A DNA stretch of 64,000 nucleotides from Artemia franciscana (lineage: Eukaryota > Arthropoda > Branchiopoda > Anostraca > Artemiidae): assembly GCF_032884065.1 (NCBI RefSeq), contig NC_088867.1, forward strand, positions 60,082,317-60,146,316. The letters are read 5' to 3'. Shown here piece by piece: positions 15,330-49,799 of the stretch. The notes under the pieces are model-generated. The model made no database searches and was not told where the DNA came from. It saw nothing but the letters and a program-made list of their open reading frames with translations. The translations under genes were made by a program, and so were the position numbers. Each line of letters starts with the position of its first letter. Position 1 is the first letter of the stretch.

Positions 15330-16840
15330 AATAAACAAGAGTTAAGAGCTCATATGGCACTTGCGACAAGGTCGGAAGAGCCAAGAGCTCATATAGTATG
15401 AGCTCTGGCAAAATTCTAAGAATCAATAGATTGCTTTAAAAGGAAAATCAGAAGCTTAGTGCCGGTCGGGATTTAAAATAAGAGCTCTGAGTCACGAGGT
15501 TCTTCTAAATATCAAAATTCATTAAGGTCCGATCACCCACTCGTAAGTTGAAAATACCTAAATTTTTCTAATTTTTCCTCTCCCTTCAGCCCCCCAGATG
15601 GTCGAATCGAGGAAAACGACTTTATCAAGTCAATCTGTGCAGCTCCCTGACACGCCTACCAATTTTCATCGTCCTAGCACGTCCAGAAGCACCAAGCTCG
15701 CCAAAGCACTGAACCCCACCCCCTAGCTCCCCCAAAGAGAGCGGATCCAGTCCTGTTACGTCTATCACGTATCTACGACATTTATAAGCGTTTTCCAAGA
15801 TTTCCGGTTTCCCCTCCAACAACTTCCTACAATGTCAACAGATCTGGTCAGGATTTGTTGACATTGACATTAAGAGCTCTGAGACATGTTCCTTCTAAAT
15901 ATCAAATTTCATTAAGATCTGGTCACCAATTCTTAAGTTAAAATACCTCAATTTTTCTAATTTTTCCAAATTAACAACCTCCAGCTCCCCTAAAGAGAAC
16001 AGATCCGTTCCAATTATTTCAATCACATATCTATAACTTGTGCTTATTCTTCCCATCAAGTTTCATCCCGATCTCTCCACTCTAAGCGTTTTCTAAGATT
16101 TCCGGTTTCCCCCTCCAGCTCCCCCCAATGTCACCAGATCTGGTCGGGATTTAAAATGAGAGTTTTGAAGCACAAGATCCTTCTAAAGATCAAATTTCAT
16201 TAAGATCTGATCACCCGTTCGAAAGTTACAAATACCTCATTTTTCTAATTATTAAGAATTACTCACACCCCCCCAACTCCACTAAAGAGAGTGGCTCCGG
16301 TCCGGTTATTTCCATCACATATCTTGGACTTGTGCTTATTCTTCCCACCAAGTTCCATCCTGATCTCTCCGCTTTAAGCGTTTTCCAAGATTTCCAGGTA
16401 CCTCCCCCAATGACACTGGATCCGGTCGGGATTTAAAATAAGATATCTGAGTTACGAGGTCCTTCTAAATATGGAATTTCATTAAGATCTGATCACTCGT
16501 TCGTAAGTTAAAAGAATTAACCTCATTTTCTCTAATTTTTTAGAATTAACCTTCCCCCCTCCCAGCTCCCCAAAGAGAGCGGATCCGTTCCGGTTATGTC
16601 AATCATGTATCTAGGACTTGTGATTATTTTTCACATCAAGTTTCATCCCGATCCCTCCACTCTAAGCGTTTTCCAAGTTTTTAGGTTTCCCCCCAACTCC
16701 CCGCAATGTAACCGGATCCGGTCGGGACTTAAAATAAGAGCTCTGAGACACGATATCCTTCCAAACATCAAATTTCATTAAGATCCGATCACCCGTTCGT
16801 AAATTAAAAATACCTCATTTTTTCTAATTTTTCTGATTTA
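15330..16840 (+). repeat. Tandem array F, ~300-base units with hairpin leader (copy 1)
   Basis: About five diverged units; the phrase cgggatttaaaataagagct or a close variant recurs near 15468, 15847, 16150, 16426 and 16722. Each unit also carries caccc-ttcgtaagtta, cccccaa(c/g)tccc, agagagcggatccg, aagtttcatcccgat and gcgttttccaagatttccgg. It is preceded by a leader with an inverted repeat, gccaagagctcata...tatgagctctggc (15380-15409). More GC-rich than its surroundings. Confidence 0.9.
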
Positions 16841-19649: not shown

Positions 19650-22548
19650 CAAGTTCTTGGCTGGACATACAGGTCTACGTATGGAAGTCTTGCTGGATGT
19701 ACATGTGAAGGTCGCTTAAATGTATGGATTATAAAGAGTATATGGAGAGACCTGGTGGAATATATACCTGGAAGACGATCTGAAGCCTATTCCTGCTAGC
19801 TATTCTTTTCCTTTTTATTGCGTTATATAATTTGCAAGTGACAGTCAAATCGAGCCAACCAGTGAATTATCTGAATATTCCTTCACTGAAGGCTTTTAAA
19901 ATCAAGAATTCCGTTAATTTCCGATCATCTCAAGCCAGTTTATCCTGTTTTGTTTCAAGGCTGGGAGATCGAGTCGAAACTCTCAGAAAAGGTTTTTTGG
20001 GATGAGTAGGGGGCTTTTAATTTTATTTTTCAGGGAAGAGGCGAAAATATTCTACCTGCCCTCACAAAAGCGAATATCCTGCGTTTTTTGGGGCTTTTTT
20101 AATGTCTGACACCCTAGAAATATGATTCCTAACATGGGGCCAAGGCCCCATTGGTGGGGAATGAGAATATTTTGGTCAATCATGGCAAGATGTGGACTCT
20201 TCGAATGAGTATTCTTTAGACTCTTAATTTCGAAAAAAAAAATCATATGAACAACGTCATACATCGTGTAAAAGGTGTTGTATTCAGACAACGATTTTCA
20301 TTAGCATAAAATATGCCTAGAGGATGACCAGAAAAAAAGATACCAAATTAATCGCCTTTTAAGCTTCCTTCAGTGAAATGCACGTAAAAGTTTGAGTAAA
20401 AAAATTTAAATATCATGAGGGGGCATCAGGATTTTAGAAATGCCTAGATGGGGTATGGCCCAAAATCGGTTGGGAACCACAGGCCTGGAGGCTCTCTGAC
20501 CATTTACGACATATAAAGTTTGAATTCTACAAACATGTTTGGAACCGCTAAAAATCAAAAGGAACCAAACTTTTATGTTTAAGAATTTCGAGGGTTTGAC
20601 ATCTTCATTGTTTGCGTGTAAAACGAGCTACGTTTTGATTCAATACAAAAAAAGCTAAGTCCTGGCTAAATTTAAAAATAAGCTGTGCACAGTCTTCTTC
20701 TATTGCCTAAGCAAAAGGATTCAGAATCCACACTGCGAGGTGTAAGGTACTCCCCTTATTGTTGTTTAAAATTATGACTAATAAAAACTATACTGAATGA
20801 GATAAGACGAGCTTGGGAGTTTTATTTTCCTTTTTTACACAGATTACTGAAACGTTGCCCGACAATATTTTCCAGAGGAATTTCAAAATTAAGATTCCAA
20901 CGTTGCCAGAGAATCCCATTCACTGAGCTCTCTTGCCGGTGCATTTTTTCTTAATTAGATTGGAAAACAAGATAACAGTTGGTTAATAGAAGAGTAAATA
21001 GCCTTAAGCGCTTCCCCTAAAGGTAAAAATAAAGTCAACACAAAACAATTTTTATTCTTGGCCACCCAAATAGCAGATAAGCAAACGCAGTGATTAAAAC
21101 AACGTGAAAAAAAAGTGTGCACGTGCTTTTCTTATATTCAATTCTTGCACAATAATGTAGGTCTTATTTTAGGCTTAAAGGTTTAGTTCCTTTGCTAAGG
21201 AATAACACATTTGTCTACATAAGCATAAGTGCGATATGAAACATTAAATTCATCAAACCTGCGCAAAGGAGGGGGTCTAAGGGGATACACATTCATTCTT
21301 TCTAGAAGACAAGTATTAAAAACATTCAAGAGTAAAAGCTTCCAAAAAAGTAAGAACTGTTTGTTTTTTATTTCACAATTATAGACTACATATTTTTTTA
21401 TGTGCTTGGCATGAAGAGGTGACTACCCTCTTTTACTTCGCTTCAAAGTCCACTTACCTTGTAATTGCTGTGCTTTGGCATGGTATGTTTGAATCAAAAA
21501 AATTTATGAACTAATAAAAGGGCACGATTTTATATATTTTTAGACATACCAAAGTGTATGGCCAACTTATAAGAGTGGAAATTGGCCTTAGTGCCGATCA
21601 AAAATTCATCAGCGCCATCTATCATTTGGCATTTTTTGACTGTGTTTTTCTCAAGCTTTTTAATTGTGTTTTTCTCTGAAACTGAGATAAGACACTTATT
21701 TCTACAGTAACTTTGCCAGTAGCATTAATTTTGCTTATTGTTACACTGGAAAAATACCTTGAAACGCTTAACATGAGATAGCGTTCATGTTACCCTTTGG
21801 GGCATGTAGTAGATAATTACAGTCAGATCAAAAGATATTTTACACAGAGAAAGTCAAGTGCTTCAAAAAAGAATTTAAACTCAAACATATATTTGATTCT
21901 GGAAGTGAAGCATGACGATAGGAAAGAAATGACCTCAGAATTTGTAAAGACTTCTGTGGGCAATGCTCCTGTACTGCACTCAAAAAGAAGGGGAAGGTGA
22001 GTTGTAAAAAAAAAATCCAGTGCAGTTGTTGAGTTGTCTATAAATAGCATTTTAGGAAAGGATTCTCCTGCCAATCTTTCTCTACTCAAAGCATGTGATT
22101 CCTGTCCTTAGTACAATAGTCATGAAATAGGCTTTAAACGGTAAAAAAATAACTAAATGTTCCTCTAGTAATGAATAGCAATTTTGATACCACTCGACGT
22201 TCAAATTTAATGACCATGATTAGGTTCACATTCTAAAAGAGAAACATAGTGTCATAGAGATGTTAGTTATTCGGAAACGTCATAGCTTAGCGTAGAAAGG
22301 GAGATTATAAACTGAATTTTGTTTGAAGATTAGATCTCCAAACTTTTGTAAGAGTACGTCTCCAATAATTTTCAGATTTTAAACAATTTAAAAGAGAAAA
22401 ATGGTGTCTGATAGTTTTTAGTTATTCGGAAGCTTCATAACATAACAGAGAAAAGGATTTTGAAAACAAAAATTACTACCTTTTCCACTGTAAGAAATAA
22501 TTCTTGGGACAGTTTTGGAGCCATCTTAATCCATTTATCTTCTTTCAG
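19650..22548. other. Rest of MADF-BESS intron 2, little recognised
   Basis: No tandem repeats recognised. A Cys-rich reading occurs at about 21930-22035 (see findings), and an open frame at 21797-22000 ends near a strong donor-like AAG|gtgagt at about 21997, but in a phase that does not fit the flanking exons. Confidence 0.45.
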
Positions 22549-23307
22549 GGCCGCATTTCAGTAAAAGAAGAAGTGTCTGAACATGAAGAAGATGAAGAAA
22601 AGTCGAGCTCAACACGTTTTATGCATGAGATTGGCTCTTACTTAGAGCTAGTACAAACCGAAGAAGCGTCCAACGGCACCAGACATCAACATAAGGAAGA
22701 AGAAGAAGAGCCACGGTCAAAACGGTTCAAGCATTTCAATGGCTCTCCAATAGAGTCGGGGCAGGATGAAAGAATACCTAGAGACGGTTTGTCTTTAATT
22801 AGAGAGGAGGATGCAGACGAAGCTTTTTGTCGATCTGTGGCAGCGGATTTGAAACAATTAAATTGTAGAGATAAGGCCTTGGCAAAATATAAAATACAAG
22901 AAGTTTTATATAAAGTGACATCTGGGGTCTACGAAGAACAGGTCACCAATAAAGGGACATCTGGGACTCATGAGGAGCAGGCCACCAATGAAGTGACATC
23001 TAGGAGCTACGAAAAGCAGGCCGCCAATAAAAAGACATCTGGGACTCATGAGGATCAGGCCACAAATAAAGTAACATCTGGGAGCTACGAAAAGCAGGCC
23101 ACCAATAAAGAGACGTCTGGGACTTATGAAGAGCAGCCCACCAATGAAGTGACATCTGGGAGCTACGAAAAGCAGGCCACCAATGAAGAAACATCTAATA
23201 TTTATGAAGAGCAGGCCACAAAGGAAGTGACACCTAGAAGCTACCAAAAGCAGTCCACGAATCAAGTGATATCTCGGATCTACAAAGACCAGAGCACCAA
23301 GGACTAG
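22549..23307 (+). CDS. MADF-BESS protein, last exon: acidic linker, BESS motif and ten 13-residue repeats
   Basis: Terminal coding exon: acceptor tcttctttcag, phase 0, stop TAG at 23305-23307, residues 125-376. It opens with an acidic Glu-rich segment and basic patches (PRSKRFKH) that could act as a nuclear signal. At about residues 212-246 comes the BESS motif: DADEAFCRSVAADLKQL, then a basic segment and KYKIQEVLYKV, the helical protein-interaction motif that follows MADF in this arthropod family. Directly after it, residues 247-376 are ten consecutive 13-residue repeats running to the stop. Most MADF-BESS proteins end soon after BESS, so this tail is an unusual extension. No clear polyadenylation signal was recognised just downstream. 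The tail's function is unknown. Confidence 0.92.
   Translation, partial: GRISVKEEVSEHEEDEEKSSSTRFMHEIGSYLELVQTEEASNGTRHQHKEEEEEPRSKRFKHFNGSPIESGQDERIPRDGLSLIREEDADEAFCRSVAADLKQLNCRDKALAKYKIQEVLYKVTSGVYEEQVTNKGTSGTHEEQATNEVTSRSYEKQAANKKTSGTHEDQATNKVTSGSYEKQATNKETSGTYEEQPTNEVTSGSYEKQATNEETSNIYEEQATKEVTPRSYQKQSTNQVISRIYKDQSTKD
22915..23304 (+). repeat. In-frame coding minisatellite: ten 39-base (13-residue) repeats
   Basis: Ten units of exactly 39 bases, with no frameshift, ending at the stop codon. The unit has the form [V/E/K]-T-S-G-x-Y/H-E-x-Q-x-T-N-x. Units largely alternate between two types, VTSGSYEKQATNK-like and ETSGTYEEQATNE-like, so the array probably grew by 78-base (26-residue) steps. 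Conserved positions are Thr2-Ser3, Tyr/His6, Gln9 and Thr11-Asn12. The last two units are the most diverged. The repeat is hydrophilic, without Cys, Pro-rich or transmembrane character. Confidence 0.93.
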
Positions 23308-25773
<2,466 letters not shown>

Positions 25774-25859
25774 CCTGTTAAACCGTTTAGGCTGGAAGGA
25801 ATGTCCGTTAACCTTATATAGCTTGCGCCATCTTCTTGCTCCTCTCCTATAAATGCTCT
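25774..25859 (-). CDS. aPKC: aPKC coding exon 5: pseudosubstrate and start of C1 zinc finger
   Basis: Fifth and last visible coding exon of atypical PKC, 86 bases, residues 112-139. It starts after a T-rich tract and tgcag, completes Lys111, and reads [19 protein letters not shown], the autoinhibitory pseudosubstrate with Ala where a substrate would carry Ser/Thr, followed by the first zinc-binding His of C1. It ends SFQPKRFNR with donor AGG|gtaagg, phase 0. The next exon should begin with the RA.C..C part of C1 and continue into DRIWGLGRQG, but I found no such sequence on the minus strand between 25773 and base 1. The gene is therefore partial in this window; the remaining C1 and the whole kinase domain are presumably to the left. 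Confidence 0.96.
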
Positions 25860-28340: not shown

Positions 28341-29610
28341 GCGAAAAACTTATTAGAAGTTTATAGAAGAAGATTTATAGAGGTTTACAGAATTTATTTT
28401 TAAAAAAGAATAAAAGTTTGTAAAATTTATAGATGTTTATAGAAGAAGATTTGTCGAGCTTTATAGAATTTATTTTTTAAAAAGAATACAAGTTTATAAA
28501 ATTTCGAGAAGTTTATAGAAGAAGATTTGTAGAGGTTTATAGAATTTACTTTTAAAAAAAGAACAGAAGTTTATAAAAATTAACGAAGTTTATAGAAGAA
28601 GATTTAAAGAGGTTTATAGAACTTAGTTTAAAAAAGAACCGAAGCCTACCAAAAATTTACGAAAGTTTATAGAAGAGGATTTATAGAGGTTTATAGAATT
28701 CATTTTAAAAAAGAACAGAAACCAAAAATTTATAGAAAGTTTACAGAAGAAAATTTGTTGAGGTTTATAGAATTTGTTTTTAACAAAGAATAGAAGCCTA
28801 ACAAAAATTTACAGAAGTTTATACAAAAAGATTTATGGGGGTTTATAGAATTTATTTTAAAAAAGAATATAAGTTACTAAAATTTATAGAATTCTATAGA
28901 AGAAGATTTATAGAGGTTTATAGAATTTATTTTTAAAAAAGAATAGAATTTTATAGACGAAGATTTATAGAGCTTTATAGAATTTTTTTTTTTTTAAAGA
29001 ATAAAAGCCAACCAAAAATTTACAAGGTTTATAAATAAAGGTTTATAGAGGTTTACAGAATTTATTTTAAAAAGAGAATAAAAGTTTATACAATTTATAG
29101 AATTTTATAGAAGAAGATTTTTAAAGGTTTACAGAATTTATTTTTGAAAAAGAATAGAAGTTTATAGAAGAAGATTTATAGAAGTATATAGAATTTATTT
29201 TTAAAAAAGAATAGAAGTTTATAAAATTTATGGAATTTTATAGAAGACGATTTGTAGAGGTTTATAGAATTTATTTTTTTTAAACAACAGATGTTTATAG
29301 AAGAAGATTTATCGAGGTTTATAGAATTTGCTTTAAAAACAGAATAGAAGCCTACCGAAAATTTAAAAAAGTTCATAGATAAAGGTTTATAGAGGTTTAC
29401 AGGATTTATTTTAAAAAGAGAATAGAAGTCTATAAAATTTATAGAAGTTTATAGAGTTTTATAGAATTTATTTTTAAAAAAGAATAGAAGTTTATAAAAT
29501 TTATAGAAGTTTATAGAAGAAGATTTATAGAGGCTTATAGAACTTATTTTTAAAAAAGAATAGAAGTTTATAAAATTTATAGAAGTTTATAGAATTTATA
29601 GAAGAAGCAA
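28341..29610. repeat. AT-rich minisatellite, ~76-base unit, about 16 copies
   Basis: The unit is built on gaagatttatagaggtttat, agaatttatttttaaaaaag and aatagaagtttataaaattt, with many deletions and substitutions. In aPKC intron 4. Confidence 0.92.
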
Positions 29611-31322: not shown

Positions 31323-31373
31323 TATCTTCTCCCTGACAGAGCTGGCCCGGTGCAAGCGGAATATTGGGGAATA
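31323..31373 (-). CDS. aPKC: aPKC coding exon 4: linker between PB1 and pseudosubstrate (51-base microexon)
   Basis: Fourth coding exon of atypical PKC, only 51 bases. Seen: acceptor attctag, then TA completing Val94, then 16 codons reading FPNIPLAPGQLCQGED, then one base and a strong donor gtgagt. Animal aPKCs have the same linker pattern here (F-P-x-V/I-P-x-x-P-G-x-x-C-x-G-E-D) between the PB1 domain and the pseudosubstrate. The last base combines with AG of exon 5 to give Lys111, as in vertebrate aPKC. The length is a multiple of three and both ends share a phase, so the exon could be skipped in frame. It is too short to show up by ORF length; it was found by reading the minus strand between exons 3 and 5 for this pattern. 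Confidence 0.95.
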
Positions 31374-40944: not shown

Positions 40945-41034
40945 CATGTATAGTAATTTCAGAGTCCTTATTGAGCTCATACAATCTAATAGCCTCAGCA
41001 AGCTCTTCCTGACTCGATATTGTGCAAGGATCAC
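40945..41034 (-). CDS. aPKC: aPKC coding exon 3: C-terminal part of PB1 domain (OPCA motif)
   Basis: Third coding exon of atypical PKC, exactly 90 bases, residues 65-93. It reads GDPCTISSQ (Gly shared with exon 2), then [17 protein letters not shown] and TIH, the very conserved end of the aPKC PB1 domain. The acceptor is cttttag, preceded 24 bases further upstream by a 64-base T run in gene orientation. The donor is CATG|GTTCGT, a weak site, but it gives the right phase for exon 4 (G|TA, Val94). Exons 3 and 4 begin and end in the same phase, so skipping this exon would keep the reading frame and delete 30 residues. The first ~26 bases and the acceptor are copied about eleven more times immediately upstream (41230-43197), which is highly unusual for a conserved exon. 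Confidence 0.95.
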
Positions 41035-41063
41035 CTAAAAGCATAGGATTTGTTATAAAGAGC

Positions 41064-41130
<67 letters not shown>

Positions 41131-41455
41131 AACAACATCAAACTGGCCAAAGACATAGATTACAACGTTTAAAAAGCCGCAGCTCCGCAGTTGATAAATC
41201 TCTGCGTTTATATTCTGCGTTATTATCCTGACTCGATATTGTGCAAGGATCACCTAAAAGCATAGGATTTGTTATGAAGAGCGTAAAAAAAAAAAAAAAA
41301 AAAAAAAAAATCAAACTGGCCAAAGACATAGATTACAACGTTTAAAAAGCCGCAGCTCCGCAGTTGATAAATCTCTGCGTTTATATTCTGCGTTATTATC
41401 CTGACTCGATATTGTGCAAGGATCACCTAAAAGCATAGGATTTGTTATGAAGAGC

Positions 41456-41490
<35 letters not shown>

Positions 41491-41636
41491 ATCAAACTGT
41501 CCAAAGACATAGATTACAACGTTTAAAAAGCCGCAGCTCCGCAGTTGATAAATCTCTGCGTTTATATTCTGCGTTATTATCCTGACTCGATATTGTGCAA
41601 GGATCACCTAAAAGCATAGGATTTGTAATGAAGAGC

Positions 41637-41669
<33 letters not shown>

Positions 41670-42169
41670 ATCAAACTGGCCAAAGACATAGATTACAACG
41701 TTTAAAAAGCCGCAGCTCCGCAGTTGATAAATCTCTGCGTTTATATTCTGCGTTATTATCCTGACTCGATATTGTGCAAGGATCACCTAAAAGCATAGGA
41801 TTTGTTATGAAGAGCGTAAAAAAAAAAAAAAAAAAAAAAACCATCAAACTGGCCAAAGACATAGATTACAACGTTTAAAAAGCCGCAGCTCCGCAGTTGA
41901 TAAATCTCTGCGTTTATATTCTGCGTTATTATCCTGACTCGATATTGTGCAAGGATCACCTAAAAGCATAGGATTTGTTATGAAGAACGTAAAAAAAAAC
42001 AAAAAAAAAAAAAAAAAAAAAACATCAAACTGGCCGAAGACATAGATTACAACGTTTAAAAAGCCGCAGCTCCGCAGTTGATAAATCTCTGCGTTTATAT
42101 TCTGCGTTATTATCCTGACTCGATATTGTGCAAGGATCAACTAAAAGCATAGGATTTGTTATGAAGAGC

Positions 42170-42209
<40 letters not shown>

Positions 42210-42534
42210 ATCAAACTGGCCAAAGACATAGATTACAACGTTTAAAAAGCCGCAGCTCCGCAGTTGATAAATCTCTGCGTTTATATTCTGCGTTATTATC
42301 CTGACTCGATATTGTGCAAGGATCACCTAAAAGCATAGGATTTGTTATGAAGAGCGTAAAAAAAACAAAAACAAAAAAAAAAAAAAACATCAAACTGGCC
42401 AAAGACATAGATTACAACGTTTAAAAAGCCGCAGTTCCGCAGTTGATAAATCTCTGCGTTTATATTCTGCGTTATTATCCTGACTCGATATTGTGCAAGG
42501 ATCACCTAAAAGCATAGGATTTGTTATGAAGAGC

Positions 42535-42573
<39 letters not shown>

Positions 42574-43197
42574 ATCAAACTGGCCAAAGACATAGATTAC
42601 AACGTTTAAAAAGCCGCAGCTCCGCAGTTGATAAATCTCTGCGTTTATATTCTGCGTTATTATCCTGACTCGATATTGTGCAAGGACCACCTAAAAGCAT
42701 AGGATTTGTTATGAAGAGCGTAAAAAAAACAAAAAAACAAAAAAACAAAAAAAACATCAAACTGGCCAAAGACATAGATTACAACGTTTAAAAAGCCGCA
42801 GCTCCGCAGTTGATAAATCTCTGCGTTTATATTCTGCGTTATTATCCTGACTCGATATTGTGCAAGGATCACCTAAAAGCATAGGATTTGTTATGAAGAG
42901 CGTAAAAAAAAAAAAAAAAAAAAAAAACATCAAACTGGCCAAAGACATAGATTACAACGTTTAAAAAGCCGCAGCTCCGCAGTTGATAAATCTCTGCGTT
43001 TATATTCTGCGTTATTATCCTGACTCGATATTGTGCAAGGATCACCTAAAAGCATAGGATTTGTTATGAAGAGCGTAAAAAAAAACAAAAAAAAAAAAAA
43101 AAAAAAACATCAAACTGGCCAAAGACATAGATTACAACGTTTAAAAAGCCGCAGCTCCGCAGTTGATAAATCTCTGCGTTTATATTCTGCGTTATTA
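41007..43197 (-). repeat. 12-copy tandem array of the aPKC exon 3 acceptor region
   Basis: About 12 tandem units of 173-186 bases (219 for the one next to the exon). On the plus strand the word gactcgatattgtgcaagga starts at 41011, 41230, 41403, 41584, 41763, 41936, 42117, 42303, 42482, 42667, 42849 and 43022. In gene (minus) orientation each unit contains an intronic stretch of about 90 bases, a T run of variable length (64 in the unit at the exon, about 20-35 in the others, sometimes interrupted by G), then acgctcttcataacaaatcc, a cttttag acceptor and the first ~26 bases of exon 3. After that, the copies turn into intron sequence (gataataacgcag). Unit 1 is the true exon start. Outside the T run, copies differ by only a few substitutions, so the expansion is recent or homogenised. 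Confidence 0.95.
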
Positions 43198-43924: not shown

Positions 43925-44278
43925 CGGCTGACTTACCGTATTTCAAACAGTAGGCTGTACGAAAAGTGTGGTTCTATCCCGCATTCTAGGGCTATAATCA
44001 GATAAAGGTTGAGATGGCTAGGACATGTTTTGCGGATGAATGATAATAGATTGCTGAAGATTGCCCTTTTCAGCCAGCCTTGTAGGGCTAAACGGAAAGA
44101 AGATCGTCTGCAGTTGGGGTGGAAAGATGTCGTAAAGAACGATTTAAGGGAAATGGGAACTTCCTGGGAGGGTGTAAAGAGGGAAACTTTGGATAGATTA
44201 GGATAAAGGAGGAGCGTGCGTAGATGTATTGGCCTCGGGCGGCTTCGTGCTGCGGTGAGTTGTTAGTAGTAGTAGTAT
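43925..44278 (+). mobile_element. 3' tail of a non-LTR retroposon, (tag)n tail
   Basis: The reading RLRWLGHVLRMNDNRL, KRKEDRLQLGWKDVVKNDLR and EMGTSWEGVKRETLDRLG is the C-terminal tail found at the end of many non-LTR reverse transcriptase proteins (R-W-x-G-H-V-x-R-M). It is followed by a short 3' UTR ending in a tag-trinucleotide tail near 44278. Upstream homology begins near 43925 (RLYEKCG), with a stop in between. No catalytic part remains. Confidence 0.8.
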
Positions 44279-45117: not shown

Positions 45118-45239
45118 CTTCTTCATCAATCCATTTCATAGTAAACAACTGATCTTGACTAAAATGACAAATATCACGCAGTTCATCTTTTAGCCTTTGA
45201 AGATCTACTTTAGGATCAATATAAGTTACTAAGATTTCC
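45118..45239 (-). CDS. aPKC: aPKC coding exon 2: core of PB1 domain
   Basis: Second coding exon of atypical PKC, 122 bases, bounded by acceptor tttctag and donor G|gttaag. It completes the split Gly at residue 23 and encodes residues 24-63. The stretch EILVTYIDP is followed by a helix-rich part (RLKDELRDICHFSQDQLF) and the diagnostic TMKWIDEE. In aPKCs this last motif begins the acidic OPCA motif, which binds the basic cluster of partner PB1 domains such as Par6 and p62. The ends are in phase with exon 1 (GG|G) and with exon 3 (G|GT, Gly64). The neighbouring intron toward exon 3 contains the tandem array at 41.0-43.2 kb; the intron toward exon 1 holds a retroposon and a large inverted repeat. 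Identification rests on recognised family motifs and phase agreement, and I regard it as firm. Confidence 0.95.
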
Positions 45240-45284: not shown

Positions 45285-46775
45285 AAGAGCTAAGAGCTCA
45301 TATGGCACTTGTGACGAGGTCGGAAGAGCCAAGAGCTCATATGGCATGAGCTCTAGCAAAATTCTAAGAATCAATAGATTGATTTAAAAGGAAAATCAGA
45401 GGGTTAAATGCCGGTCAGGATTTAAAATAAGAGCTCTGAGACACACAAAGTCCTTTTAAATATCAAAATTCATTAAGATCCGATCACCCACTCGTAAGTT
45501 AAAAATACCTCATATTTTCTAATTTTTCCTTTCCTTTCCCCCCCCCCCCCCATATGGTCGAATCAGGGAAAACAACATTATCAAGTTAATTTGTTCAGGT
45601 CCCAACACGCCTACCAATTATTATCGTCTTAGCACATCCAGAAGCACCAAACTCGCCAAAGCACTGGAGCCCTCCCCCCCCTCAACTCCCCCAAATAGAG
45701 CGGATCCAGTCCGGTTACGTCAATCACATATCTACGACATTTGCTTATTCTACCCACCAAGTTTCATCCCGATCACTCCACTCTAAGCGTTTCCCAAGAT
45801 TTCTGGTTTCCCCCTTCAACTTCCCCCAATGTCATCAGATCTGGTCAGGATTTAAAATAAGAGCTTTGAGACATGAGTTCCTTCTAAATATCAAATTTCA
45901 TTGGGATCTGGTAATCCGTTCTTAAATTAAAAATACCTCAATTTTTCTAATATTTCCGAATTAACACCCCCCCCCCCAACTCTCCAAAAGAGAGTGGATC
46001 TGTTCCAATTATGTCAATCACGTACCTAGAACTTGTGCTTATCCTTCCCATCAAGTTTCATCCCAATCTCTCCACTCTAAGTGTTTTCCAAGATTTATGT
46101 TTTCCCCCTCCGACCCCCTATGTCCCCAGATCCAATTCGAAATGAAAATGGAGCATCTGAGACATAAGATCTTTCTGTATATCAAGTTTCATTAAGATCC
46201 GATCACCCATTCGTAAGATAAAGAAGCCTCAATTTTGACGTTTTCCAAGATTTCCAGTTTCCCCCTTCAATTCCCCCCAATGTCAACCACATTTATGGAT
46301 TTGTGTTTATTTTTTCCACCGAGTTCCATTTCAATCCTTTCACTCTCAGCCTTTTCCAAGATTTCCCCCCCCCCAACTCCCCCCAATGACACTGGATCCG
46401 GTCAGGATTTAAAATAAGAGATCTAAGTTACGATGTCCTTCTAAATATGAAATTTCACTAAGATCCGATTACTCCTTCATAAGTTAAAAATACCTCATTT
46501 TTTCTATTTTTTCAGAATCAACCCTACCCCCCCTACTCCCCCAAAGAGAGCGGATCCGTTCCGGTTATGTCAATCACGTATCTAGGACTTGTGCTTAGTT
46601 TTTCCACCAAGTTTCATCCCGATCCCTCCGATTTAAGCATTTTCCAAGATTTTAGGTTTTCCCCTCCAACTTCCCCCAATGTCATCGGATCCAGTCGGGA
46701 TTTAAAATAAGAGCTCTGAGACACGATATCCTTCTAAATATCAAATTTCATTAAGATCCGATCACTTGGCTAATA
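45285..46775 (+). repeat. Tandem array F, ~300-base units with hairpin leader (copy 2)
   Basis: Same leader (agagctcatatggcacttgt, ggtcggaagagccaagagct, atgagctct) and the same unit order as 15330-16840, with unit starts near 45418, 45848, 46137, 46408 and 46695. Same orientation. In aPKC intron 1. Confidence 0.92.
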
Positions 46776-47310: not shown

Positions 47311-47694
47311 TAGCCCTTCAATGTTATTGAAAGTATTAATATTTGAAAGTTGTTGTGCTAGCTTCAAGCACACTGGTATTGCAGTGAATTATTAATATCA
47401 GCATTTTTGATGATAAATAAGGGTAAATGTATATATCAGGGCAAAAATCATATAGAAACAAAGAAAATGATGTTACATTCTCAATTTAACGCCCTTTCCA
47501 ATATCATAGCCACTGTTGCTGTCTTAACCTTGCTTAATGAAGCAATATATGTGATATAGAATAGTCCTAGGCTATGTAAAAAAAATTTGCTGATTTTGAC
47601 TCTTTTGTTTTAATTGGCTTTGTGAACTAATGGTAACAAAAGAAATAGTATAATGGTAACAAAAGATAATGGTAAGCCCACAAAAGATAATGGT

Positions 47695-47975
47695 AAATGC
47701 ACAAGCTCCAATTCCATCCCAGTCTATTCATAACTTCCCTCTTTAAACCCCCCAAAGAAATCCCACTTTTCTTCAAACTGTTTCTTACAACGTCTTCCCA
47801 CCCCATTTAGGCATGAACTGCTTTTCATTTAGCCGAAGATGGATGGCTGAGAAGGAATTACCTTCAGCATCACTCTTAAAAGACAATTCTGAAAACTATT
47901 TTAGGCTAAAGCAATCCCAGAAGCACATTTCTTCACTTTGTCCCCACTTCCTCCTTGATGAATGAATATACAACC
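47695..47975 (-). repeat. Left arm of a 281-bp inverted repeat (contains a retroposon tail fragment)
   Basis: Nearly identical to the reverse complement of 48774-49054, with only about five mismatches by eye. In minus orientation its distal part resembles the retroposon tail (wording of ...ggaagttatgaatagactgg). Confidence 0.92.
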
Positions 47976-47984
47976 TAACACAAA

Positions 47985-48070
47985 TCACTATCAAACAAAT
48001 AAATGAAGCTAAAGAGTAAAGAGCAAAATATAAAAAAGTAAAGAGCTTAATTATCCCAAGAAATAAATAA
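47985..48070 (+). repeat. Direct repeat shared with 49876-49960
   Basis: The words aatcactatcaaacaaataa and agagtaaagagcaaaatata occur in the same order at 49876-49960. It sits in the loop of the 281-bp inverted repeat. Confidence 0.85.
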
Positions 48071-48773
48071 ATGGTAAAGAGAAATAATGGTAACAAAAGA
48101 TAATGGTAAGCCCACAAAACCAGCAAACTTTTGCATATAGCCTAGGGCTATATCAGGCCCTGCTATATTTAGCAGGGATGAAATTGTAACAGTAGTGATT
48201 ATTATTTAGGAAATAACACAATTGAAAATTCCGTGGTATATTTTCTTTTTTTCTATTTAAGTTCTTCCCTATGGACCTACTATACCTTCACTTAAATAAT
48301 TAGGCTAGTTAGGGTAATGTAAACCAACAAAATCAGCAAAACTTTTCTATATAGCCTAAGGCCATATGGAGATGTGAAACACAATTGAAACGTTAATAAT
48401 GATTATATTTGGAAGACTATTGAATGACAAGTTGGACAATATTTTTATTTTTCAGCTAGCATATTAATTGAATATTGGCAAATTTAATGAAATTAATTAA
48501 AGTGTTCCTCTAAATAAAAGGTGTAAAATTTGGTTGTTATTCCCCTTTTCATTAAGAGGAGAGTAAAGACTAAGGCCAGAGGCACATTTGGAGGAAGCTG
48601 TAAGATATTCCAGAGAAAACTGATTGCTTCACTGACCCTGCCCACTCTAATTGTTCAATAATGAACATTTGTAATACCCAATAGATGGCTGTAGTGCCTG
48701 ATGATAAGATGCATATGAGTCAGGCATTAAAACTATTCACTATTGAAAAAATGTACTGGGAATATACATAGTG

Positions 48774-49054
48774 GGTTGTATATTCATTCATCAAGGAGGA
48801 AGTGGGGACAAAGTGAAGAAATGTGCTTCCGGGATTGTTTTAGCCTAAAATAGTTTTCAGAATTGTCTTTTAAGAGTGATGCTGAAGGTAATTCCTTCTC
48901 AGCCATCCATCTTCGGCTAAATGAAAAGCAGTTCATCCCTAAATGGGGTGGGAAGACGTTGTAAGAAACAGTTTCAAGAAAAGTGGGATTTCTTTGGGGG
49001 GTTTAAAGAGGGAAGTTATGAATAGACTGGGATGGAATTGGAGCTTGTGCATTT
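48774..49054 (+). repeat. Right arm of the 281-bp inverted repeat
   Basis: Partner of 47695-47975 across about 800 bases. The plus strand continues beyond the arm (to about 49107) with the 3' part of the retroposon tail family, ending in gttgttactagtagt. The left arm therefore looks like a later inverted copy of this segment. Confidence 0.92.
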
Positions 49055-49799
49055 GCGCTGGTCTCTGGCGGCTTGGTGCTTCAATGAGTTGTTACTAGTA
49101 GTTTTCGGAATTTTTCTAGGGCTTCTCCAACATACTACTGATCTTAATCTTTACTGAACAGAGTAAAACAGTAAATTACCTATTCTTTACTTACAGGAAT
49201 GGCTCCAGAGCCTCACTGATCCCAAACAAAGAATTTTCAAGTACCAACCTCAACATCTCCCCTCTTCAAAGAGAACTGATCTTTGGCAATCTTTATTTTA
49301 TGAAGGTTTAACATAGGAAAGTAAATATCAGCCAACTGCTCAAATGAGACACAAGAAACTTTTTTTAAGCATCATACCTTTGCTTGATCCCGATTTACAA
49401 TAACTTAAAGATTTGTAGATCTACATCTTAAATTTAAAAAAGATCTGGCATTGCCTAAAATTATAGTAACATAACAGAAATTCTTTTTCAAAACCTATAT
49501 TCAATAAAAAAGAGACTAAAGACCCAGGGTAAAATGTCTGTTTTTTCTTGTTTTTTGTTAAAATTAAGATAGGTACAGATTGGTCATTTTTGCCATCTCC
49601 TCAACCATGGAAATAAGGAAAGGAGGGGATATTAGCTTGATAACAACTTCCAAGACACATTTCAGGTTGTGGATTCATTCCCAAAACTCAGCGACTATCC
49701 ATGATAGCAAGAACCCACACAAGCAGAACATCACTGCTCTTTCTCTCTTTCTAGGTTATTAATTTAACAATTTTTTTCCACAAAACAAGTTTTTCAAAG

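Follow-up and report, generated by a model that had tools for sequence, protein, structure and literature searches.

The boundary between intron 2 and exon 3 of a gene in the brine shrimp Artemia franciscana raises the question of how a message is spliced when twelve near-identical acceptors stand in a row and only the last leads into the rest of an exon. We analyzed this locus within a window, the whole 64,000-nucleotide stretch under study, which lies at 60.08–60.15 Mb of a 60.87-Mb scaffold and has a GC content of 35.0%, in an assembly of 1,270,528,402 bases and 6,468 contigs. A first-pass annotation of these letters had described twelve tandem copies of a splice acceptor and exon start, had assigned the gene to atypical protein kinase C (aPKC), and had offered two alternatives, namely that the array modulates aPKC splicing or that it is tolerated.

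The identity of the gene was addressed by joining exons 2 to 5 (Table 1; a slash in the sequences marks a boundary). The joined exons gave an open frame of 116 residues that aligned without gaps to chain positions 35–150 of PKC iota (9ejk_B; E 4.1e-52), and a Pfam search on them called PB1 as the only domain (E 9e-13), with exon 2 matching the PB1 domain of PKC iota. We take exon 5 to be the start of the C1 domain. Exact motif words detected no kinase exons in the window. The gene is thus aPKC/PKC iota, as had been proposed, and its exon 3 has the length and symmetric phase given for it in the first-pass annotation. The gap-free alignment indicates 41034 to be the real acceptor and offers no place for decoy sequence within the conserved protein; it speaks for regular splicing of exon 3 at the level of the predicted protein and does not address the fraction of correct messages. 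Judged by titles and the beginnings of abstracts, the literature search yielded no paper on aPKC in Artemia.

Downstream of exon 5, on the opposite strand and probably inside the aPKC gene, we observed an open frame of 268 aa (22501–23307, plus strand). It encodes a BESS motif (E 9.5e-8) and, after it, about ten tandem repeats of 13 aa in frame (TSGxYEEQATNK-like); this repeat stretch had one match in the genome.

Table 1. Coordinates in the window of aPKC exons 2–5 and of the twelve array units. The first exon base is the position directly 3′ of CTTTTAG.
Feature	Position	Strand	Length	First exon base	Remarks
aPKC exon 2	45118–45239	−			PB1; ends DEEG with exon 3; donor AAG/GTTAAG; start inferred from frame and CTAG
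aPKC exon 3	40945–41034	−	90 nt		phase 1 at both ends; donor ATG/GTTCGT
aPKC exon 4	31323–31373	−	51 nt		donor ATA/GTGAGT
aPKC exon 5	25774–25859	−	86 nt as cut		donor taken as AGG/GTAAGG
Unit 1, decoy	43018–43197	−	180 bp	43045	
Unit 2, decoy	42845–43017	−	173 bp	42872	
Unit 3, decoy	42663–42844	−	182 bp	42690	GTGGTC variant
Unit 4, decoy	42478–42662	−	185 bp	42505	
Unit 5, decoy	42299–42477	−	179 bp	42326	
Unit 6, decoy	42113–42298	−	186 bp	42140	AG then TTGATC
Unit 7, decoy	41932–42112	−	181 bp	41959	
Unit 8, decoy	41759–41931	−	173 bp	41786	
Unit 9, decoy	41580–41758	−	179 bp	41607	
Unit 10, decoy	41399–41579	−	181 bp	41426	
Unit 11, decoy	41226–41398	−	173 bp	41253	
Unit 12, real acceptor	41007–41225	−	219 bp	41034	71-base T tract

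Cutting the region into units confirmed the twelve tandem copies, which occupy 41007–43197 on the minus strand and lie across the intron 2/exon 3 boundary. TRF likewise reported one array of 11.7 copies at 41105–43197 (score 3785; 94% matches, a figure that mostly mirrors tract length), and a chance origin of the repeat pattern is out of the question. Each unit starts with TAATAACGC and continues through ~90 bases of intron sequence, a T tract, ACGCTCTTCATAACAAATCCTATGCTTTTAG (the decoy consensus between the tract and the exon-derived part) and the first bases of exon 3; all twelve open with TAATAACGCAGAATATAAACGC and close with CGAGTCAGGA. The repeat of the exon start had been recognized correctly, and its length, put earlier at about 26 bases, is 28 bases in every unit, with one change there in two units. 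The eleven decoy units, each with the acceptor CTTTTAG as anticipated, measure 173–186 bp and carry T tracts of 25–38 bases, counted as cut with a leading G or GG included. Only unit 12 continues into the remainder of exon 3, with its donor.

The decoys resemble the real site closely. The AG and the first exon base are identical to it in 10 of 11 decoys, and all eleven differ from it in tract length and in one upstream base: 23 bases upstream of the exon, unit 12 has T and every decoy has C (CTTCATAAC against CTTTATAAC, with a further change there in unit 9). The stretch around this base could hold a branch point. Ranking the acceptors by T share did not separate them, the last 60 bases being 60–68% T in all twelve. 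As for higher-order structure, tract lengths at lag 3 were not significantly alike (p 0.14); TRF also scored a three-unit period of 533.

We then considered the age of the array. Outside the tract, the units (12 × 148 bases) differ by nine changes, each private to one unit (~0.5% per unit), and one of the nine is the T/C difference just described; the gap-free columns additionally include five variable tract columns, two of them with changes common to two units. These nine single-unit changes indicate that the array is young. Other arrays in the window with a period of at least 60 showed 74–94% matches, many near 80% and one 67%, so that the aPKC array is comparatively young among them. Young arrays also occurred in a 200-kb sample, with 95% matches in L018 and L036 and 97% in L019, which has two copies.

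The array starts at GCGAC/TAATAACG and ends at GTCAGGA/AGAGC, and the join between units reads GTCAGGA/TAATAACG, with no bases common to both sides. Searched against the 1.27-Gb genome, the intronic 90 bases of the unit gave 12 matches, a lower bound as very common words were skipped, and all 12 lie inside the array. A dispersed satellite, which the first-pass annotation had named as one of two observations that would undo its reading, was thus looked for genome-wide and rejected, as was a transposable element. Exon 3 with its 3′ flank matched itself alone, and the 5′ flank gave one full match (itself) and five short stretches (57–73 bases, 79–82%); a second full copy of either was therefore rejected. 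With a single complete occurrence of the 5′ flank, the assembly includes no second haplotype. An Rfam structured RNA (no matches in the window at gathering scores) and a tRNA gene (searched in bacterial mode) were rejected as well.

Other repeats lie around the gene. Two arrays of a C-rich ~290 bp unit, at 15785–16832 and at 45674–46762, the latter just upstream of aPKC exon 2, are 78–85% alike over at least 400 bp, and a further two-copy piece (L030:250-851) lies elsewhere on this scaffold, at a distance of ~20 Mb; this unit is a dispersed tandem family, as judged from these sequence matches. Between aPKC exons 4 and 5, at 28345–29604, lies a complex AT-rich array whose nested periods range from 62 to 344 bp. 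Open-frame pieces reading RWLGHVLRM and a repeated MGWEDVVRNS..., at 44006–44206 (plus strand) and 47627–49100 (both strands), resemble retrotransposon tails.

What would follow from use of a decoy was read from the decoy frames and donors. As predicted earlier, all eleven decoys run into a stop before the T tract: from the Gly/Val codon, each gives 38 codons, consisting of one plus eight native and 29 foreign positions, up to a TGA. The GDPCTISSQ start ascribed to every unit holds for most of them, with two exceptions: unit 6 has T for the first exon G and thus Val for Gly, and unit 3 has Gly for Asp. Unit 6 is also the sole decoy without AG/GT, a motif present in 10 of 11 decoys and in 11 of 12 acceptors overall at a spacing of 173–219 nt; such AGGT sites at unit-length spacing are one mark of a dual-specific array. 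Among exons 2–5, only the acceptor of exon 3 is followed by GT. Because the first bases of such a decoy are GT, re-splicing from it would leave no scar, a point that the first-pass annotation did not make.

Donor strength was estimated as pairing with the 5′ end of U1 using ViennaRNA duplex energies in kcal/mol. The decoy AG/GTGATC scored −6.6 in place and −6.7 when joined to exon 2 as AAG/GTGATC, exceeding the donors of exons 2 (−5.1), 3 (−3.1) and 4 (−5.2) and falling short of that of exon 5 (−9.4); the variant decoys scored −5.9 (unit 3) and −0.9 (unit 6). A human donor matrix gave the same order (2.39 for the regenerated site, −0.28 for exon 2 and −0.82 for exon 3) and placed the unit 3 variant (−0.18) about level with exon 2. 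In unit 2, the one decoy scored throughout, AG/GT itself was the strongest GT, and the other donors were weak: GTCAGG at +21 reached −4.0, GTAATC at +90 and GTTTGA at +110 reached −1.4 each, and the rest lay above 0. The donor of exon 3 is weaker than the GTGATC at the start of the same exon, weaker than GTCAGG of unit 2, and equaled or exceeded by 21% of the GTs on the strand. Exon 3 may be susceptible to skipping irrespective of the array. Ratchet points typically carry a GTAAGT donor, with G at +5, directly after the acceptor, and GTGATC has no G at this position. Strong use is disfavored by the missing +5 G and by the fact that exon 3 itself begins with GTGATC, a donor whose use would skip the exon.

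The first-pass annotation knew of no described case of this form, which proved wrong. In amphioxus, minisatellite-like tandem duplications of intron–exon boundaries, called "mirages," have been reported in Adh3 and the globins BflGb6 and BflGb9 (PMC3087553) and in troponin C and PGBD5 (PMC3902484). The BflGb6 unit of 150–160 bp comprises the 3′ end of an intron and the 5′ part of exon 2 and occurs in 6 and 3 copies in two haplotypes with 81–100% pairwise identity, many mirage units contain AG/GT, RT-PCR suggests regular splicing (PMC3087553), and the boundary unit is excluded from homogenization (PMC3087553; PMC3902484). The aPKC array shares the two defining features, with a unit spanning the exon–intron boundary in all 12 cases and an authentic exon left intact at one end, where unit 12 runs into the full exon 3, and its layout is nearly identical to that of BflGb6. 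It differs in its crustacean host, its 12 units, its ~0.5% divergence per unit and the 25–71-base T tract in each unit. Within the openly licensed literature, queries not directed at arthropods returned no report of an arthropod mirage.

We regard it as likely that the aPKC array is a young boundary minisatellite of this kind that is tolerated and removed with intron 2. It would have started with a single blunt tandem duplication, consistent with the lack of shared bases at the join, and would have grown by slippage or unequal crossing-over. A duplicated "intron end plus exon start" would always keep its final copy whole, allowing the gene to survive. The spliceosome would mostly define exon 3 by its own donor and body and pair it with the nearest acceptor, that of unit 12, so that splicing likely picks the last acceptor and the other units leave with the intron. 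Were a decoy used now and then, the message would stop early and be destined for decay, or a second splicing step from the decoy AG/GT would mend it; whether decoys are used or silent is predicted here from their sequences. This reading is supported by the gap-free alignment, the near-identity of the units with their private changes, the restriction of the array to one locus, the traceable ends of the duplication and the amphioxus precedent, and it is consistent with the weak donors of unit 2 and with the lack of visible constraint on the decoy exon bases; the AG/GT start of the copied exon may be the reason that such an array can be carried. Three points weigh on the other side. With a donor weaker than those of exon 2 and of the decoys, a donor-defined exon 3 is not obvious from strength alone; the GTGATC heading exon 3 could favor its skipping; and the longest T tract or the unique upstream base of the real acceptor could be selected.

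The readings are not mutually exclusive, and the probabilities that we attach to them may total more or less than one; the closest rival merges into tolerance, which allows it as a minor path. It holds that the decoys are truly used, as zero-length ratchet or dual-specific sites, and that the final message is normal: exon 2 would join a decoy AG, regenerating AAG/GTGATC, which would be spliced to a decoy further along and, in the end, to exon 3, so that 10 of the 11 inter-acceptor stretches (GT...AG) behave as small tandem introns. The AG/GT at ten decoys and at the real site, its rank as the strongest GT of unit 2, its restriction to exon 3 among the acceptors compared, and the strength of the regenerated donor all fit such a path. 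Human UBC offers a working parallel, a tandem array of evenly spaced dual-specific AGGT sites, each usable in principle as a 5′ or 3′ site (PMC10809524); as here, any two sites enclose a whole number of units, whereas UBC units are coding and their splicing alters the protein, aPKC units are intronic and such splicing would be silent, and dual use is putative in the aPKC case. Drosophila ratchet points, in which a donor follows the acceptor at once as it also does in RS-exons, are in use (PMC8605326); they are well conserved and lie mostly in long introns, whereas the aPKC intron is 4.1 kb, its array is young and the +5 G is absent. Competition with a later donor is one deciding factor in recursive splicing, and donor strength alone is not fully explanatory (PMC8605326). 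Against stepwise removal, exon 3 would be expected to be skipped through the same regenerated donor, disrupting the PB1 domain; moreover, unit 6 has no GT, and the GTGGTC of unit 3 is weaker. We consider general use of the decoys unlikely. Its strictest version, in which ten decoy dual-specific sites and the real one guarantee that every path ends in the normal aPKC message, is likewise unlikely; there, a used decoy would recreate a donor, GTGATC in nine of ten, that outpairs that of exon 2 with U1. A related process is intron gain by tandem duplication of a segment with an AG/GY proto-splice site (PMC2891723; PMC4974935): in both cases a duplicated AG/GT segment creates a potential intron as long as the duplication itself, although in intron gain a coding piece yields a new intron and here the copy lies at the edge of an existing one. 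Tandem repeats are also reported to alter human gene structure (PMC2812944).

If the decoys were regulatory, the eleven T tracts and acceptors would compete with the real site or gather U2AF- or PTB-like proteins, lowering or tuning aPKC through aborted, decaying messages. Retention of an AG and a T tract in all eleven decoys, and the stop that each reaches after 38 codons, would suit this idea, which nonetheless appears very unlikely. At ~0.5% divergence, retention of the AG in every decoy is expected anyway, and amphioxus mirages are reported with splicing undisturbed (PMC3087553; PMC3902484). We also saw no constraint on the exon bases of the decoys: two of eight changes fell in the 308 exon-derived bases and six in the ~1,320 others (Fisher p 0.65), in a comparison of 11 decoys with counts by eye (1,331 entered for ~1,320), few changes and little power. 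Both exon-part changes alter codons (Asp to Gly and Gly to Val). Modulation of aPKC splicing, the first of the two alternatives in the first-pass annotation, is thus not supported, and tolerance is the better supported of the two. Long homopolymers are hard to sequence, and this counts for another view, that the array is an assembly or sequencing artifact and that the true allele contains a single copy or only a few; one amphioxus mirage was misassembled in a draft (PMC3087553). Most units, however, have private changes or their own tract lengths and interruptions, unlike a simple assembler duplication, the window contains no N, and the flank is not duplicated on another contig, making an artifact highly improbable; unit number may well differ in other animals. 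Finally, a decoy acceptor paired with the GTAATC 90 nt downstream could create up to eleven extra in-frame exons of 30 codons, recognizable in cDNA by DNNAEYKRRDLSTAELRLFKRC. In unit 2, this stretch measures exactly 90 nt, has an open frame and preserves phase, as does exon 3, and the other units have the same letters apart from single changes. Such cassettes are extremely unlikely, as GTAATC is a poor donor, equaled or bettered by half of the 3124 GTs on that strand of the window, and the agreement in length with exon 3 is most likely a coincidence.

How unusual an array over an acceptor would be was estimated from 20 stretches of 10 kb, a small sample from one scaffold that includes 200 N. 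TRF detected one array that combined a period of at least 60 with no fewer than 8 copies and matches of 90% or higher, that of L018 (88 bp × 8.4), which scales to ~6,350 such arrays genome-wide (95% Poisson 161–35,400). Artemia franciscana has 26,923 genes of 5.65 exons each (PMC11492255), and by our arithmetic ~1.8% of such arrays (unit ~178 bp) are expected to cover an acceptor by chance. The chance expectation, for this small one-scaffold sample and before selection, is roughly 3 to 600 arrays covering an acceptor, so that the occurrence of one is not improbable.

Together, these results suggest that the array by itself is probably a tolerated accident; it is most likely without selected function, and a function is unlikely. 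Its presence extends the mirage pattern reported from amphioxus to the brine shrimp. Duplicated acceptors have been made to compete in cis in laboratory constructs, and the aPKC array is a natural counterpart: its decoys possess near-identical acceptors and first exon bases without the exon body and donor, so that RNA reads would reveal what those elements add. The array is also a sharp test of whether AG/GT acceptors render such arrays harmless. If every path through the decoys did end in the normal message, boundary minisatellites would survive mainly at exons starting with GT, a rule of survivorship.
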